A stretch of 64,000 nucleotides of DNA from Leptothermofonsia sichuanensis E412 (GTDB lineage Bacteria > Cyanobacteriota > Cyanobacteriia > Leptolyngbyales > Leptolyngbyaceae): contig NZ_CP072600.1 of NCBI RefSeq assembly GCF_019891175.1, positions 4,898,001 to 4,962,000 of the forward strand, in the 5' to 3' direction. The translations under genes were made by a program, and so were the position numbers. This document shows, piece after piece, positions 5,295-64,000 of the stretch. Below the pieces are notes generated by a model. It had not been told where the DNA came from, ran no database searches, and worked only from the letters and a program-made list of their open reading frames with translations. Position 1 is the first letter of the stretch; each line of letters starts with the position of its first letter.

Positions 5295-5823
5295 ATCGAC
5301 TTCTCTCTGGTTTTCTGGCATTTGTCATGGTATCGCTGACAGCGTGCCCCTCGTCGCAGGCACCGCCAGCACCTGTGACCCCACTGAAAGAGGTTACCCT
5401 TGACGACACCACAAAAATCGTCACCGGTCAAACTGTTTATGTTCCCATCTACTCCCACATCTACATGTGGGAGCAGAATCGCACAATCAACTTAACGGCG
5501 ACTTTACGGCGACTTTGAGTGTTCGCAATACAGACCTCAATCATCCTATGATTGTTGCCTCGGTGAATTACTACGATTCAAATGGGGCGATCGTCCGCAA
5601 GTATCTCAAGCAACCTGTGGAACTGGGTCCCCTGGCAGCCACAAGTTTTGTTGTGAATCAGGAGGATACCAGCGGTGGTTCAGGAGCCGCCTTTATTGTG
5701 GACTGGGTGGCTCAAACGCCACTCACCGCCCCTGTGATTGAAGCCGTGATGATTAACACGAGTAGCAACCAGGGGCTATCTTTCATCAGCCAGGGGCGCG
5801 TCATTAAAAGTCGGAACAACTAA
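5291..5823 (+). pseudogene. DUF3124 lipoprotein, broken by an 11-bp tandem duplication
   Basis: The ATG overlaps the MscS stop codon (ATGA). The first 30 residues are a lipoprotein signal with lipobox LTAC, followed by the start of a DUF3124-type domain (VYVPIYSHIY). The frame ends at 5518. The rest of the domain (LSVRNTDL... to the stop at 5823) is in another frame. Between them the unit ACGGCGACTTT occurs twice in a row (5495-5505 and 5506-5516); removing one copy restores a continuous reading TATLSVRNTD and a protein of about 170 residues. The gene is therefore a recent frameshift unless the duplication is a sequencing error. Confidence 0.82.
5495..5516. repeat. 11-bp tandem duplication causing the DUF3124 frameshift
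   Basis: Two exact copies of ACGGCGACTTT. The length is not a multiple of three, so it shifts the frame of the lipoprotein gene. Confidence 0.9.
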
Positions 5824-50483: not shown

Positions 50484-50665
50484 TCTAGTTGATAAACCTA
50501 CTTATTTGTCAGATTAACATTGAAACCTACTACTGGCTCAGACTACTAAGTGCTGCTGGCATTCTTTCAGAAAGTCGGATGCAATCGCTCCAGATAGAAG
50601 CAGAGAAAATTATGAAAATCATTAGAGCCATTATTATTTCAAGTAAAAAGGTAAAAGGCAAAAGT

Positions 50666-50956
50666 ATGAAAAAGTTGGATGCACTCAAGCTAGTTCAATC
50701 TCACCAAGAGGAGCTACAAAAGTTAGGCGTTAAGTCGCTCAATCTTTTTGGCTCCGTTGCCCGTGGTCAAGCCAACCCTCAAAGTGATGTGGATATCTTA
50801 GTGGAACTTGATGAATCTATTGGCTTCTTTGAATTTTTCCACATTAAACATTATCTGGAAGATCTTTTTCAGTGTCCTGTTGATTTAGGGACAGTTGACG
50901 CTCTCAAAGAACATCTCAGGCAACCGATCTTGGAGGAAGTGGTTCATGTCTTCTAG
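50666..50956 (+). CDS. MNT nucleotidyltransferase antitoxin 2
   Basis: 96 residues from ATG 50666. GSVARGQANPQSDVDILVEL is the MNT signature. It belongs to a different subfamily from units 1, 3 and 4 (FEFFHIKHYLEDLF). There is no tail-like leader just before it; about 180 bases of AT-rich DNA separate it from the DUF3644 gene. Confidence 0.85.
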   Translation: MKKLDALKLVQSHQEELQKLGVKSLNLFGSVARGQANPQSDVDILVELDESIGFFEFFHIKHYLEDLFQCPVDLGTVDALKEHLRQPILEEVVHVF

Positions 50957-51287
50957 ATCTGCAAAAGAGCGTATTCAAGATATTCTCAATGCCATTGATA
51001 GCATTCAGAGCCGAACTACTGGCATGAGTTTTGATCAATTTAGTCAAGATGAAACGATCGTTAAAGCCGTACTTTATGACCTCATTGTGATTGGTGAAGC
51101 AGCGATTAATATTCCTGTTGATGTTCAAGCCCTAGCACCTGAACTTCCTTGGCGGCTCATGAGTGATATGAGAAATATTATGGCTCACGAATATTTTCAA
51201 GTCAGTCTACGAATTACTTGGTCAACAATTCAAAATAACCTACCTCCTCTGATTAATCCTTTACAACAATTACAGACAAAATTATGA
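50946..51287 (+). CDS. HEPN toxin (DUF86-like) 2
   Basis: 113 residues from ATG 50946, overlapping the MNT gene by 11 bases. Motif RNIMAHEY (Rx4HxY). Stop overlaps leader 3 (ATGA). Confidence 0.82.
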   Translation: MSSRSAKERIQDILNAIDSIQSRTTGMSFDQFSQDETIVKAVLYDLIVIGEAAINIPVDVQALAPELPWRLMSDMRNIMAHEYFQVSLRITWSTIQNNLPPLINPLQQLQTKL

Positions 51288-51457
51288 GTACAGCTATATT
51301 TTTTCAAAGTTTTTCAAAACCCATCAATCATGAAATCGATCGCGTCCTTGCCCAACACCCAAAAACTGATTGGGGCTTCACCAACGAAGAACTCGACGAC
51401 CTCATCAACTACGACATCAAATACCGCATGGGCAGAGACAGCGGAGGTGATGACTGA
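51284..51457 (+). CDS. Tail-like leader peptide 3 (array unit)
   Basis: 57 residues with its own N-terminus (MSTAIFFQSFSKPINHEID) and then RVLAQHPKTDWGFTNEELDD and the common end. It lacks the 24-bp palindromic insert present in units 2 and 4. Coupled at both ends by overlapping codons. Confidence 0.65.
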   Translation: MSTAIFFQSFSKPINHEIDRVLAQHPKTDWGFTNEELDDLINYDIKYRMGRDSGGDD

Positions 51458-51795
51458 TGGCAACACTTCAACTAAACTCTAGACTTCAATCCCGACTGGG
51501 GATTACTCCAGAACAACTTGCCGAATTTTGTAATCGGTGGAAAATAGCTGAACTCGCTCTCTTCGGCTCAGTCTTGCGAGATGACTTTTCTGCCAACAGT
51601 GATATTGATATTTTAGTCAGCTTTACTCCTCATCATTCCTGGGGTTTAGAGTTTATTCAAATGCGAGAAGAGCTGTCTACCCTTTTTAAGCGACCAGTCG
51701 ATTTATTAACTCATAAAAGTATTATAAGTAGCCACAATGCTCTTCGCCGTCAAGCAATTCTAGACTCAGCGGAGGTCATCTATGCTGCGAGATAA
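51457..51795 (+). CDS. MNT nucleotidyltransferase antitoxin 3
   Basis: 112 residues, GSVLRDDFSANSDIDILV, close paralogue of unit 1 with about 11 differences. Confidence 0.85.
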   Translation: MATLQLNSRLQSRLGITPEQLAEFCNRWKIAELALFGSVLRDDFSANSDIDILVSFTPHHSWGLEFIQMREELSTLFKRPVDLLTHKSIISSHNALRRQAILDSAEVIYAAR

Positions 51796-52123
51796 ACAAA
51801 CATTAGTTGATATCTTAACCGCGATTCAGCAAATTTTGAAATATGTTCAAGACATCAACCAAACACAATTGAAGCAAGATGACGAAAAACAAGCCGCTAT
51901 TTTATATCGACTCATTATTATTGGAGAAGCAACTAAGCGTCTGTCTGATGAATTCCGTGAGCGATATCCAGCAATTCCCTGGCGGCAAATGGCGGGTTTG
52001 AGAGATGTCGTTATCCATGACTATGATGAACTGGATTTCAATATCCTCTGGAATGTGATCCATATTAATTTGCCTGATATTTTGCCAGAAATTCAAGCAA
52101 TTTTAGAAGGTCTGGAGCGTTAG
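51782..52123 (+). CDS. HEPN toxin (HepT/DUF86-like) 3
   Basis: 113 residues, RDVVIHDY motif, close paralogue of unit 1; substitutions cluster in the first 32 residues. Confidence 0.85.
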   Translation: MLRDKQTLVDILTAIQQILKYVQDINQTQLKQDDEKQAAILYRLIIIGEATKRLSDEFRERYPAIPWRQMAGLRDVVIHDYDELDFNILWNVIHINLPDILPEIQAILEGLER

Positions 52124-52127
52124 GATA

Positions 52128-52298
52128 ATGCCAATCAAACAATTGAAACCCATCATTGACGAAATCGTTTGCGTAGCTTCTCCTGTGGAGAATCGCGTCC
52201 TTGCCCAACACGACGGCTTCACCGCCGAAGAACTCGACTTTATCATCAACTACGACATCAAATACCGCATGGGCAGAGACAACGGAGGGGATGACTGA
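52128..52298 (+). CDS. Tail-like leader peptide 4 (array unit)
   Basis: 56 residues; same N-terminus as unit 2 including the palindromic insert, then AQHDGFTAEELDFIINYDIK. This is the version closest to the methyltransferase tail as I remember it. Stop-start overlap with XisH. Confidence 0.65.
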   Translation: MPIKQLKPIIDEIVCVASPVENRVLAQHDGFTAEELDFIINYDIKYRMGRDNGGDD

Positions 52299-52711
52299 TG
52301 GCAAAAGATCTGTTCCATGATGTCGTTAAAACTGCCCTAATCAAAGATGGCTGGCAAATTACTGACGATCCGCTTTTCCTCAAAGTAGGTGGCGTAGACT
52401 TTTTCATCGACCTCGGCGCAGAAAAACTACTTGCCGCCGAACGCGATGGTGAAAAGATCGCTGTCGAGATCAAAAGCTTTATCAACACCTCCAGCATTGC
52501 CGATTTCCATCTTGCGATCGGGCAATTCATTAACTACCGTGTTGCATTAAAAGCAGCCGATCCAGAACGGCAATTATTTCTGGCTGTTCCCGACATCACC
52601 TACAATACATTTTTTCAAAAAGAGTTTCCACGCATGGTAATTAAGCAGTATCAACTTAAACTCTTTGTATATGACATTGAAAATGAGGTGATTGTTCTAT
52701 GGCAAACCTAG
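52298..52711 (+). CDS. xisH: XisH family protein
   Basis: 137 residues. In Anabaena, XisH is needed with XisI for excision of the fdxN element, but the family is far more common than such elements. FIDLGAEKLLAAER and IAVEIKSF form a possible PD-(D/E)XK nuclease core. The 3' end overlaps XisI by 13 bases. Confidence 0.88.
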   Translation: MAKDLFHDVVKTALIKDGWQITDDPLFLKVGGVDFFIDLGAEKLLAAERDGEKIAVEIKSFINTSSIADFHLAIGQFINYRVALKAADPERQLFLAVPDITYNTFFQKEFPRMVIKQYQLKLFVYDIENEVIVLWQT

Positions 52712-53043
52712 AAAAACTTCAAACTTATCGAACCATCATCAAGCAACTACTGGAGGAATATGCTGCCTACAAACCATCCTATGGTGACATTGAAATTCAA
52801 ATGATTTTCGACACAGAACATGACCATTATCAAGTGGTTGCGATCGGCTGGAATAAAAAAGAGAGAATCTATGGTTGTTCAATTCATTTGGATATTAAAG
52901 ATGAGAAAATTTGGATTCAGGTCAATAATACCGAGTTAGATATTGCTCAAGACCTGGTTGAACAAGGAATACCCAAAGAAGATATTGTCATTGGATTTCA
53001 ACCGCCTTACTTGCGTCAATATTCAGGTTATGCAACCGTTTAA
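52699..53043 (+). CDS. xisI: XisI family protein
   Basis: 114 residues: YRTIIKQLLEEYAAYKPSYG and RIYGCSIHLDIKDEKIWIQ are XisI hallmarks; ends with IVIGFQPPYLRQYSGYA. Partner of XisH. Given its place among toxin-antitoxin pairs, a toxin/immunity role is possible. No fdxN-type excision element borders were seen. Confidence 0.88.
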   Translation: MANLEKLQTYRTIIKQLLEEYAAYKPSYGDIEIQMIFDTEHDHYQVVAIGWNKKERIYGCSIHLDIKDEKIWIQVNNTELDIAQDLVEQGIPKEDIVIGFQPPYLRQYSGYATV

Positions 53044-53206
53044 TCCCATCACTCATCAAATCCTTGGCGCAGACTCTCCCTTGAAGAATCGCGTCCTAGC
53101 CCAACACCCAAAGATTTCGAGGGGCTTCACCGACGAAGAACCCGACGACCTCATCAACGACGACATCAAATACCACATGGGCAGAGACTCAGGGGGTGAT
53201 GAGTAA
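53030..53206 (+). CDS. Tail-like leader peptide 5 (array unit)
   Basis: 58 residues from ATG 53030, overlapping the XisI end. ITHQILGADSPLKNRVLAQH, then GFTDEEPDDLINDDIKYHMG. The Shine-Dalgarno is slightly changed (GGGGGTGATGAG) and TAATG replaces TGATG. Confidence 0.6.
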   Translation: MQPFNPITHQILGADSPLKNRVLAQHPKISRGFTDEEPDDLINDDIKYHMGRDSGGDE

Positions 53207-53544
53207 TGTATACCATTCCTTTCAGTCTTCAATTACAGCAACGACTCTCGATCACCTCAGACAAACTCGCAGAATTTTGTCAGCGTCGGCAGATCAAAGA
53301 ACTTGCGCTATTCGGTTCTGTTTTACGTGATGACTTCCACGCCAATAGCGACATCGATATGCTAGTCACCTTTCAGCCCAATGCCAAAGTTAGCCTTCTA
53401 GATTTGGTTGATATGCAGTACGAACTAGAAGACTTATGCCACCGCAAAGTGGACTTACTCACTAAAAAATCAGTAGAAACTAGCCCCAACTGGATTCGTC
53501 GCAAGGAAATTCTGAGTACAGCCAGAGTCATTTATGAGTCGTGA
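53206..53544 (+). CDS. MNT nucleotidyltransferase antitoxin 4
   Basis: 112 residues. GSVLRDDFHANSDIDMLV signature; more distant from units 1 and 3 in the second half (SLLDLVDMQYELEDLCHRKV). Overlaps HEPN 4 by 11 bases. Confidence 0.85.
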   Translation: MYTIPFSLQLQQRLSITSDKLAEFCQRRQIKELALFGSVLRDDFHANSDIDMLVTFQPNAKVSLLDLVDMQYELEDLCHRKVDLLTKKSVETSPNWIRRKEILSTARVIYES

Positions 53545-53887
53545 CCAAACCTACCTAGTTGACATCGCTACGACTTGTCAAACCGTGATTGAACTGATTC
53601 AAGGCATGAGTCAATCATCGTTTGTCGCAGACAAGCGCACCCACCTTGCTGTGCTGTATGAAATTATGGTTATTGGAGAAATTGTCAAGCGGCTCTCTTC
53701 AGAATTTCGGCAAGACCATCCAGAAATACCGTGGAAGCAAATCGCTGGAATGCGGGATAAGTTAGTGCATGACTACAACAAGGTCGATCTAGATTTGACT
53801 TGGGAAGTGACTCAATCTAGTATTCCTGAACTTCTAGCGTTTGTGCTGCCCCTACTGCCCCAAGAGGAGACTGGCTATGATAGTTGA
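53534..53887 (+). CDS. HEPN toxin (HepT/DUF86-like) 4
   Basis: 117 residues, motif RDKLVHDY. Partner of MNT 4. Confidence 0.83.
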   Translation: MSRDQTYLVDIATTCQTVIELIQGMSQSSFVADKRTHLAVLYEIMVIGEIVKRLSSEFRQDHPEIPWKQIAGMRDKLVHDYNKVDLDLTWEVTQSSIPELLAFVLPLLPQEETGYDS

Positions 53888-53900
53888 TCGCGCCTTGCTT

Positions 53901-53993
53901 GCCACTACAGTTTCACCGACGAAGAACTCGACGACCTCATCAACGACGACATCAAATACCGCATGGGCAGAGACAACGGAGGTGATGACTGAT
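53901..53993 (+). pseudogene. Tail-like leader remnant 6 (no start codon)
   Basis: Encodes FTDEELDDLINDDIKYRMGR and the GGAGGTGATGACTGATG end, but the frame has a stop just upstream and no start codon before the conserved part. The Shine-Dalgarno is kept and can still serve the DUF4258 gene. Confidence 0.65.
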
Positions 53994-54252
53994 GAATTTT
54001 AAGTTTTCAAATCATGCTCTGGAAGAAATAGAAAAGCGGAAAGTCCCGATCTCCTTTGTAGAAGCTGTCTTAGAAAATCCACAGCAAACTCTTCAACAAG
54101 ACGAGGAGATCACAATCTATCAATCTCAAATGGATTTTGGCACAGGCAAGCTCTACTTACTTCGAGTCTTTATCAATATCACCATTGACCCCGCAATCGT
54201 TGTAACCGTTTATCGCACCAGTCAAATCAAAAAACATTGGAGGAACCCATGA
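53992..54252 (+). CDS. DUF4258 protein (RelE-like toxin candidate)
   Basis: 86 residues. FSNHALEEIEKRKVPISFVE and VVTVYRTSQIKKHW are DUF4258 features. Next to a DUF2283 gene, a common toxin-antitoxin arrangement. Confidence 0.78.
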   Translation: MNFKFSNHALEEIEKRKVPISFVEAVLENPQQTLQQDEEITIYQSQMDFGTGKLYLLRVFINITIDPAIVVTVYRTSQIKKHWRNP

Positions 54253-54461
54253 AAATCAAATATGATCCCGAAGTAGATGTGATGCGGATTACCCTCAAGG
54301 ATGCAGAGATTGAAGAAAGTGATGAAGAAACCCCCGGCATTATCCTGGACTTTGACGCTAATCGAAATGTCGTTGGTATCGAAATTCTTCAGGCTTCCAA
54401 ACGAATTGACAACCCACAATCTGTTGAGTATATGATTGCTCAGACAACCGTCTCTTCCTAA
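54249..54461 (+). CDS. DUF2283 protein (antitoxin candidate) 1
   Basis: 70 residues from ATG 54249, overlapping the toxin stop (ATGA). KIKYDPEVDVMRITLKD and PGIILDFDANRNVVGIEIL are DUF2283 hallmarks. Confidence 0.8.
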   Translation: MKIKYDPEVDVMRITLKDAEIEESDEETPGIILDFDANRNVVGIEILQASKRIDNPQSVEYMIAQTTVSS

Positions 54462-55965: not shown

Positions 55966-56036
55966 GGACTATCTGCAAAGTTTTAATTTTGGTGCAATTC
56001 CACTTTGCTAGACTTTTGAAGTTGTATAATAGTAAT

Positions 56037-56094
56037 ACAGTCAAGAGGTCTGACCTAATTTAGACCGCGAGAGCAAGGTCTCTCCTTGACTGTC
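56037..56094 (+). ncRNA. Structured RNA leader upstream of DUF3800 gene
   Basis: Perfect 9-bp outer stem ACAGTCAAG (56037-56045) with CTTGACTGT (56085-56093). Inside, GGTCT (56047), AGACC (56062) and GGTCT (56077) allow two alternative helices. It is preceded by TATAAT and followed by TCTTTTATTTT, as a terminator would be. Structured RNA motifs upstream of DUF3800 genes have been described; whether this matches one of them is unchecked. Confidence 0.6.
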
Positions 56095-56121
56095 TTTTAT
56101 TTTAAAGGTGCTTAATGCCTC

Positions 56122-56814
56122 ATGTACTTGTTGTATGCAGATGAATCTGGATCTGTTCACGACCCTAGCCAGCAGTACTTTGTATTAGCTGGCTTCTGTG
56201 TTTTTGAGAGGCAAGGATTTTGGATAGCTAGTGAACTAGATAAAATTGCTGCTCAATTTAATCCTGCTGACCCAACATCAATGGAATTACATGGTAGCCC
56301 AATGTTGGGTGGCAAGGGTAAATGGAGAAAATATCCTAGAAGTGATAGAGAGCAAGCAATTGAAGATGCACTACGTGTCTTTCTACGTTCACATCCAAGT
56401 AATCGGGCATTTGCAAGTGTGATCAAGAAGTCAGTGGTATCTCCTAGTGATCCTGTTGAAGTTGCATTTGAGCAGATAGCCAGTCGATTTGATAAGTACA
56501 TGATTAGATTGCACAAGACGGGTGATACACAGCGAGGAATCATCATTTTTGACAAATCTACTTACGAAACAACAATTCAATCACTCGCGACTGATTTTCG
56601 GACAATTGGATACAGATGGGGAATAATAAGGAATTTTTCTGAGGTTCCTCTATTCCTTGATTCACAGGCTTCAAGGTTAATTCAACTTGCTGACATAATT
56701 GCATACGCAACTTTTCGAAATTTTGAGCAAGGTGACAGTAGATTTTTCTCAATTATTCAACCTCGATTTGATTCGGAGGGCGGTATAGTACATGGGCTTC
56801 ATGTACAGCAATAG
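56122..56814 (+). CDS. DUF3800 domain protein
   Basis: 230 residues. LLYADESGSVHDPSQQYFVL at the start and RLIQLADIIAYATFR near the end are DUF3800 features (RNase-H-like fold with acidic residues DES, D in FDKS and LAD). Such proteins sit in mobile and defence regions and may be nucleases. The start codon was chosen as the ATG nearest the RNA leader; the true function is unknown. Confidence 0.8.
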   Translation: MYLLYADESGSVHDPSQQYFVLAGFCVFERQGFWIASELDKIAAQFNPADPTSMELHGSPMLGGKGKWRKYPRSDREQAIEDALRVFLRSHPSNRAFASVIKKSVVSPSDPVEVAFEQIASRFDKYMIRLHKTGDTQRGIIIFDKSTYETTIQSLATDFRTIGYRWGIIRNFSEVPLFLDSQASRLIQLADIIAYATFRNFEQGDSRFFSIIQPRFDSEGGIVHGLHVQQ

Positions 56815-61903: not shown

Positions 61904-62371
61904 ATGATCCAACTGAGCTTTAGTGCCGAAGAGATTGAGCAACTACATTACGAACGCTTTCACCATCCACATCCGCGTGTGCAACAAAAAATGGAAGCGT
62001 TGTATCTCAAAAGTCAAGGATACTCGCATCAGGAAATTACCCGGTTGCTTCGGGTGACAAAACCAACGTTGTTGAGCTATCTGCGAGATTATGAAACTGG
62101 GGGGATCGGCAATCTCAAAGAATTGACCTTTTATCGACCCCAGAGTGAACTGAAACAACATCAACAGACTTTGGAAGCATACTTCCGGGCAAATCCTCCA
62201 AAGACCCTAGCGCAGGCTTGCGCCAAGATCGAAGAACTGACTGGTATTGTCCGTAGTCGGGAGCAAGTGAGGGTGTTTCTCAAATCGATGGGGATGCGTT
62301 GTCGGCGAGTGGGGATGTTGCCCGCCAAAGCTGATGTAGAAGCGCAGGAGGAGTTCGTCAAAAAAAACTAG
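61904..62371 (+). CDS. IS630 element B transposase, first frame (copy 1)
   Basis: 155 residues, helix-turn-helix domain (GYSHQEITRLLRVTKPTLL). The frame stops right after the A8 run at 62360-62367. A -1 slip restores K-LDPRLQEAKAGQRAVFFVDAAH and leads into the catalytic part. Confidence 0.85.
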   Translation: MIQLSFSAEEIEQLHYERFHHPHPRVQQKMEALYLKSQGYSHQEITRLLRVTKPTLLSYLRDYETGGIGNLKELTFYRPQSELKQHQQTLEAYFRANPPKTLAQACAKIEELTGIVRSREQVRVFLKSMGMRCRRVGMLPAKADVEAQEEFVKKN

Positions 62372-63059: not shown

Positions 63060-64000
63060 TACTTTGCCGGGGTATAGATTTTACCCTCTAGATAAAGTAG
63101 AAATGAGGTAGACCGTTGAGTGTTGAGCACGGTGCCTCCCAATGATCCAACTGAGCTTTAGTGCCGAAGAGATTGAGCAACTACATTACGAACGCTTTCA
63201 CCATCCACATCCGCGTGTGCAACAAAAAATGGAAGCGTTGTATCTCAAAAGTCAAGGATACTCGCATCAGGAAATTACCCGGTTGCTTCGGGTGACAAAA
63301 CCAACGTTGTTGAGCTATCTGCGAGATTATGAAACTGGGGGGATCGGCAATCTCAAAGAATTGACCTTTTATCGACCCCAGAGTGAACTGAAACAACATC
63401 AACAGACTTTGGAAGCATACTTCCGGGCAAATCCTCCAAAGACCCTAGCGCAGGCTTGCGCCAAGATCGAAGAACTGACTGGTATTGTCCGTAGTCGGGA
63501 GCAAGTGAGGGTGTTTCTCAAATCGATGGGGATGCGTTGTCGGCGAGTGGGGATGTTGCCCGCCAAAGCTGATGTAGAAGCGCAGGAGGAGTTCGTCAAA
63601 AAAACTAGACCCACGACTGCAAGAGGCAAAAGCAGGTCAGAGAGCCGTCTTCTTTGTCGATGCTGCCCATTTTGTTCTGGGGGCCTACTTAGGGTTTTTG
63701 TGGTGCTTTGAACGCTTGTTTATCAAGTCGGGGGCAGGAAGGCAACGGTTCAATGTCTTAGGGGCCCTCAACGCCGTGACTCATGCGTTAATCACCGTCA
63801 CCAATGAGACTTATATCAACGCTCAAAGTGTCTGTGAATTACTGCACAAACTGGCAGCTCTGGGATTAGACATTCCGATTACGCTTGTGTTGGATAACGC
63901 TCGGTATCAGAAGTGTGCGGTTGTGATGGAGTTGGCTCAATCATTGAACATTGAGTTGTTGTATCTAACGGTCTATTCTCCCAATCTCAACTTGATTGAG
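63060..64000 (+). mobile_element. IS630-family element B, copy 2 (cut by window end)
   Basis: Same left end TACTTTGCCGGGGTATAG and sequence as copy 1, with an A7 instead of an A8 run at 63598-63604. Right end outside the window. Confidence 0.88.
63142..63711 (+). CDS. IS630 element B transposase, first frame (copy 2)
   Basis: Identical to copy 1 until the A-run; with seven As the frame continues to 63711 as RPTTARGKSRSESR, which is not transposase sequence. The catalytic part follows in another frame to the window end. Confidence 0.82.
   Translation: MIQLSFSAEEIEQLHYERFHHPHPRVQQKMEALYLKSQGYSHQEITRLLRVTKPTLLSYLRDYETGGIGNLKELTFYRPQSELKQHQQTLEAYFRANPPKTLAQACAKIEELTGIVRSREQVRVFLKSMGMRCRRVGMLPAKADVEAQEEFVKKTRPTTARGKSRSESRLLCRCCPFCSGGLLRVFVVL

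Follow-up and report, generated by a model that had tools for sequence, protein, structure and literature searches.

Does a structured RNA lying directly before a DUF3800 gene serve as a leader of that gene, as a working partner of its product, or as an antidote to it? The question arises at a locus of the cyanobacterium Leptothermofonsia sichuanensis E412, within a stretch of 64,000 nucleotides from contig NZ_CP072600.1 (positions 4,898,001 to 4,962,000; hereafter the window). The initial annotation of window positions 56020-56121 described an RNA leader with two mutually exclusive inner helices, and suggested a regulator, or a guide or partner of the DUF3800 protein. Our preferred reading, to which we assign a probability of roughly 0.45, is a two-part cassette resembling type III toxin-antitoxin systems, in which the RNA would act as antidote or brake on an RNase HII-like protein and would also attenuate the gene through a terminator of its own.

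A three-armed RNA upstream of a DUF3800 gene

The perfect 9-bp outer stem, the TATAAT just upstream, the T-rich run downstream and the DUF3800 gene named in that annotation are all present at the locus, whose features are as follows.

56025-56030, plus strand: -10 box TATAAT of the RNA promoter, from sequence; position kept in homologues
56037-56093, plus strand: DUF3800-VI-type structured RNA, about 57-65 nt; RF02915 match at 35.5 bits, covariation, single copy in the genome
56037-56045, plus strand: outer stem, 5' arm ACAGTCAAG, pairing with 56085-56093
56047-56066, plus strand: hairpin 1, GGTCTGA / TTAGACC; 99% of cells paired in 15 homologues
56069-56084, plus strand: hairpin 2, GAGAG / CTCTC, loop CAAGGT; three of five pairs changed on both sides
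56085-56093, plus strand: outer stem, 3' arm CTTGACTGT, pairing with 56037-56045
56094-56103, plus strand: T-rich run CTTTTATTTT, terminator-like, directly 3' of the outer stem
56122-56814, plus strand: DUF3800 gene, 230 aa, RNase HII-like predicted fold (PF12686, AF2 model, Foldseek)

The RNA is three-armed, its outer stem enclosing two inner hairpins. Its folding energy as a 60-nt molecule is -24.3 kcal/mol (z -3.6 relative to shuffled sequences), and the 102-nt stretch 56020-56121 gives a folding z of -2.6. Minimum-energy folding of the homologous RNA at locus L002 favours a different fold, and folding a single sequence therefore does not settle the structure. A search for tandem repeats of the RNA at the window locus found none.

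Covariation was assessed in an alignment of 15 homologous RNAs, 13 cyanobacterial and two from Bacteroidota. RNAalifold recovered the three-helix structure with compensatory changes in four pairs; in the named structure, which includes a tentative loop-loop contact, 94% of cells pair, both sides are changed in 21 cells, and the observed covariation score was reached by none of 500 shuffles. The loop-loop contact itself joins CCU of hairpin 1 to AGG of hairpin 2, with two near-invariant pairs and a third that fails in 10 of the 15 sequences. Upstream of position -45 the 13 cyanobacterial copies share only 25-29% identity, which rises only towards the -10 box, and the copies therefore sit mostly at unrelated sites. 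Judged by sequence comparison, the hairpins are real and conserved, and the static three-armed form is the supported structure. Covariation, whose absence would have told against the initial annotation, is present. Masking of the RBS by the CCUUU loop was also considered and rejected, being inconsistent among copies and falling below 0.05 against shuffled controls in only one of 12.

Membership of the DUF3800-VI family

The DUF3800 RNA motifs were reportedly defined by Weinberg and colleagues in 2017, and the literature found, in which that original paper is not covered, states no function for DUF3800-associated RNAs. The conserved structured RNA expected by the initial annotation is specifically of the Rfam type DUF3800-VI: the covariance search that it proposed matched RF02915 at 35.5 bits over model positions 1-52 of 52 in an 81-nt scan, against a curated gathering threshold of 35 bits. 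A whole-window Rfam scan gave no match in the window and a 701-nt scan at E 5 reported no DUF3800 family, the match having presumably been lost to filters in these longer scans. Among the close relatives scanned, L033 (40.8 bits) and L048 (44.8) pass the threshold, L002 (33.7) falls just below it, and no match was reported for L001, L004 and L035; the more distant cyanobacterial copy L007 scores 67.5 bits. In the reverse test, model R1, built from the window group, detects proteobacterial and phage DUF3800-VI RNAs with E values of 1e-5 to 2e-3. We conclude from these scores that the window RNA is a borderline member at the edge of the family.

The window RNA shares with DUF3800-VI an outer stem around two hairpins and its site upstream of a DUF3800 gene. 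It is set apart by an outer stem of the form CAGTYRAG/CTYGACTG, a loop CWWGGT and a U-tract joined to the outer stem; in most proteobacterial copies the terminator forms a hairpin of its own. At genome scale, RF02915 detects the RNA in two of 386 genomes of the phylum and model R1 in 17 of 390 genomes of the class, the two scans being based on different genome draws. The same three-helix layout before DUF3800 is also seen on ColE1-like plasmids of E. coli and Klebsiella (L025, positions 5641-5691, and L026); these RNAs are too diverged to be reported by either RF02915 or model R1.

Predicted promoter, terminator and read-through

A TATAAT-like hexamer lies at -14 to -9 (+/-1) from the RNA in the 13 cyanobacterial copies, while the two Bacteroidota copies carry in its place TAnnTTTG boxes, which we take to be the promoter type of Bacteroidota. 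A consensus scan called no full sigma-70 promoter pair at the RNA. At the other end, three to six T are found among the 8 nt after the stem in the 13 cyanobacterial copies, and both Bacteroidota copies also have T-runs. Because the T-run directly follows the RNA's own outer stem, with no separate hairpin, the terminator is apparently part of the RNA itself. Proteobacterial and phage relatives have the same RNA, then a separate terminator hairpin, then the gene.

In the window only 28 nt separate the RNA from the start codon, a spacing that, on sequence, leaves no room for a second promoter, so that the gene apparently depends on read-through. With promoter boxes at a fixed distance 5' and the T-run 3', the RNA looks like a self-terminating transcript of about 60 nt, behind which the gene is probably transcribed by read-through.

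A predicted RNase HII-like protein

The product of 56122-56814 matches PF12686 with an E value of 2.2e-18. Its AlphaFold (AF2) model (pLDDT 79, pTM 0.85) finds its best Foldseek matches in the PDB among RNase HII/HIII, with probability 1.00, E values down to 7e-4 and TM-scores of about 0.4-0.5, the last of which count against the RNase HII-like part of our reading. Across 12 sequences residues D7, D144 and D191 do not vary, and E8 is replaced only once, by Asp in L007. The protein is thus modelled as a putative nuclease whose fold resembles RNase HII and whose acidic residues are conserved; published work likewise assigns DUF3800 an RNase H fold (PMC10910872, PMC12669027). A sequence search of the PDB with the protein returned nothing relevant, and PADLOC gave only weak matches (E 0.01-0.05). 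Intact genes are under strong purifying selection (dN/dS 0.02-0.06 where measurable), despite which many other DUF3800 gene copies are broken.

Distribution and loss of the two parts

Searches at the protein level detected relatives among cyanobacteria and in two Bacteroidota assemblies, as well as on plasmids and in phages. Among viral contigs the window protein alone retrieved no relatives, and alignment A3 as query retrieved seven, several with a DUF3800-VI RNA. Of 5426 E. coli genomes, 12 have the cassette type, always on a plasmid; among the records listed these plasmids measure 3.6-6.9 kb.

Throughout the close group, comprising cyanobacteria and the two Bacteroidota, the same RNA directly precedes the gene, and no intact gene without the RNA was found there (window, L001, L002, L004, L032-L035). 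The RNA is retained beside a broken gene in seven loci (L005, L008, L022, L036, L038, L039 and L048), and the class scan found seven genomes with the RNA and no matching gene. In six of these seven, the cyanobacterial genomes L058 and L061-L065 (about 1501-1566), a small ORF now lies behind the RNA, and in L061 a PIN-domain (VapC-like) gene comes after that ORF. RNA decay appears stepwise among these six loci, the RNA of L065 having lost its 5' arm. An intact DUF3800-VI RNA is also present at a further locus, L097 (1501-1551, reverse strand); as a T-run comes close behind it and no DUF3800 gene lies downstream, it is possibly a stand-alone copy.

All 20 of 20 pairs are kept in 13 of 15 gene-associated RNAs and in one of seven geneless RNAs (L058), where L062 and L065 were judged by eye. 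The Fisher p of 0.002 for this difference is no true probability since the sequences are related, and the counts of geneless and broken-gene copies are not independent, these copies being partly related by descent. The loss pattern fits an antidote, and random decay of a larger gene beside a small RNA gives the same pattern: as a small target, the RNA would be expected to outlast its gene by chance as well.

Directly upstream of the window cassette, positions 50489-54461 hold a toxin-antitoxin-like run of three MNT/HepT pairs, XisH/XisI and DUF4258/DUF2283; in phage Marin the cassette lies near a CI-like repressor gene. Toxin-antitoxin and defence genes are at home in all three settings (E. 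coli plasmids, phage Marin and the window locus), a hint at a similar role through guilt by association only. The neighbours examined include no gene recognised as CRISPR-associated. By eye, the ORF list of the window shows the 5' part of a transposase-like gene twice in nearly identical form (61904-62371 and 63142-63711), and several other transposase-like ORFs from 56850 onwards. A comparison of L035 with its relatives for the edges of a mobile unit yielded no clean empty site, the intergenic regions being too diverged.

A possible RNA antidote

In the mechanism that we favour, the promoter would drive a three-armed DUF3800-VI RNA of about 60 nt, and most transcripts would terminate at the U-tract behind the RNA's own outer stem. 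Occasional read-through would yield mRNA for the RNase H-fold (RNase HII-like) protein. The RNA, in excess, might then bind the protein and hold it inactive, by analogy with ToxIN and AbiF; if transcription or the locus were lost, the freed nuclease could be toxic and so serve defence or maintenance. Read from sequence, the cassette has a conserved fold, a promoter box and a U-tract at the ends of the RNA, an RNase HII-like predicted fold and a tight association of its two parts.

Several observations argue for an antidote: the three-helix form covaries; lineage-appropriate promoter boxes stand 5' and a T-run 3', with the gene apparently reached by read-through; the predicted fold keeps the acidic residues D7, E8, D144 and D191; no intact close-group gene lacks the RNA, which is retained beside broken genes; geneless RNAs mostly lose pairs; and the habitats (small plasmids, phage, the HepT/MNT and XisH/XisI run) are typical of such modules. 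Against it stand the geneless RNAs of L097, which looks intact, and L058, which keeps 20 of 20 pairs, and the lack of the tandem RNA repeats usual in type III systems; moreover, fold and association would fit an autoregulatory leader equally well.

Type III toxin-antitoxin systems (ToxIN, CptIN, TenpIN) place an RNA, a Rho-independent terminator and a nuclease gene behind one promoter (PMC5086642). The cassette has RNA, predicted terminator and gene in the same order, the terminator being a U-tract in the window group and a separate hairpin in relatives. It differs in lacking tandem RNA repeats and in its protein, whose predicted fold is RNase HII-like and not that of ToxN, and for these reasons we do not file it as type III. 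Similar in layout is also AbiF/Abi_2 with its ncRNA RCd22, for which antidote activity has been demonstrated (PMC12373285): there too a single toxic-protein gene, in a prophage, follows a structured ncRNA with its own terminator. That system has an Abi_2 (Cas13-related) protein and two RNA motifs, and the window RNA is only a putative antidote. More tentative than our main reading is the possibility that DUF3800 and its RNA form a toxin-antitoxin or defence system of a new class, in which an RNase HII-like nuclease would be neutralised by a three-armed RNA that is present in a single copy and whose outer stem also acts as terminator.

Alternative functions

The RNA could instead be a cis-regulatory leader only, an attenuator of its own gene in which the DUF3800 protein or another factor binds the RNA and alters termination, with no antidote role. 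Wherever the gene is intact the RNA is directly upstream, the outer stem and U-tract form a terminator-like element, and Rfam types RF02915 as 'Cis-reg'. We nevertheless consider this doubtful as the whole account: no antiterminator alternative covaries, relatives with a separate terminator preserve the RNA fold although another element terminates transcription there, and the RNAs of L058 and L097 are intact or nearly so without a DUF3800 gene.

Unlikely, too, is a functional ribonucleoprotein, in which the RNase H-fold nuclease would be switched on or steered by the RNA, acting as a required cofactor or as a guide or scaffold. The strict association of RNA and protein would suit it, as would the RNase H fold common to RNA-guided nucleases and the presence of DUF3800 proteins beside Cas12a2 and VI-F systems (PMC10910872, PMC12669027). 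The accessory proteins of these V-A2 and VI-F CRISPR loci have the RNase H-fold DUF3800 domain in common with the window protein, but the window gene has its own dedicated RNA and, among the neighbours examined, no recognised CRISPR-associated genes. The RNAs, moreover, outlive their genes in several genomes, and in the aligned RNAs the conserved part has no variable segment attached to it, as the guide of OMEGA or CRISPR systems is attached to its scaffold. As the conserved RNA spans everything from promoter to U-tract, a guide role is disfavoured; of the functions first suggested, the evidence leans towards a partner or antidote combined with attenuation in cis.

The two exclusive states first proposed, in which AGACC would alternate between the two GGTCT, are highly improbable. 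The alternative helix AGACC:GGTCT(2) is pairable in 98.7% of cells, a consequence of conserved GGUC-like strings; it has zero changes on both sides, while the helices that such a switch would disrupt do covary. Finally, an ordinary terminator hairpin or chance fold, suggested by the T-run after the stem and by a terminator scan that flagged part of the RNA, is refuted as sole explanation by covariation in 15 sequences from two phyla; the Rfam family match, the branched structure and the conservation of unpaired positions also speak against it, and it can hardly be right.

With the window copy and its relatives, class VI gains a cyanobacterial and Bacteroidota branch that is missed by the standard Rfam scan. 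Together, the distribution and anatomy of the cassette lead to a directly testable hypothesis, that of an RNA antidote paired with an RNase HII-like nuclease, and the small E. coli plasmids bearing the same kind of cassette would offer an easy laboratory system.
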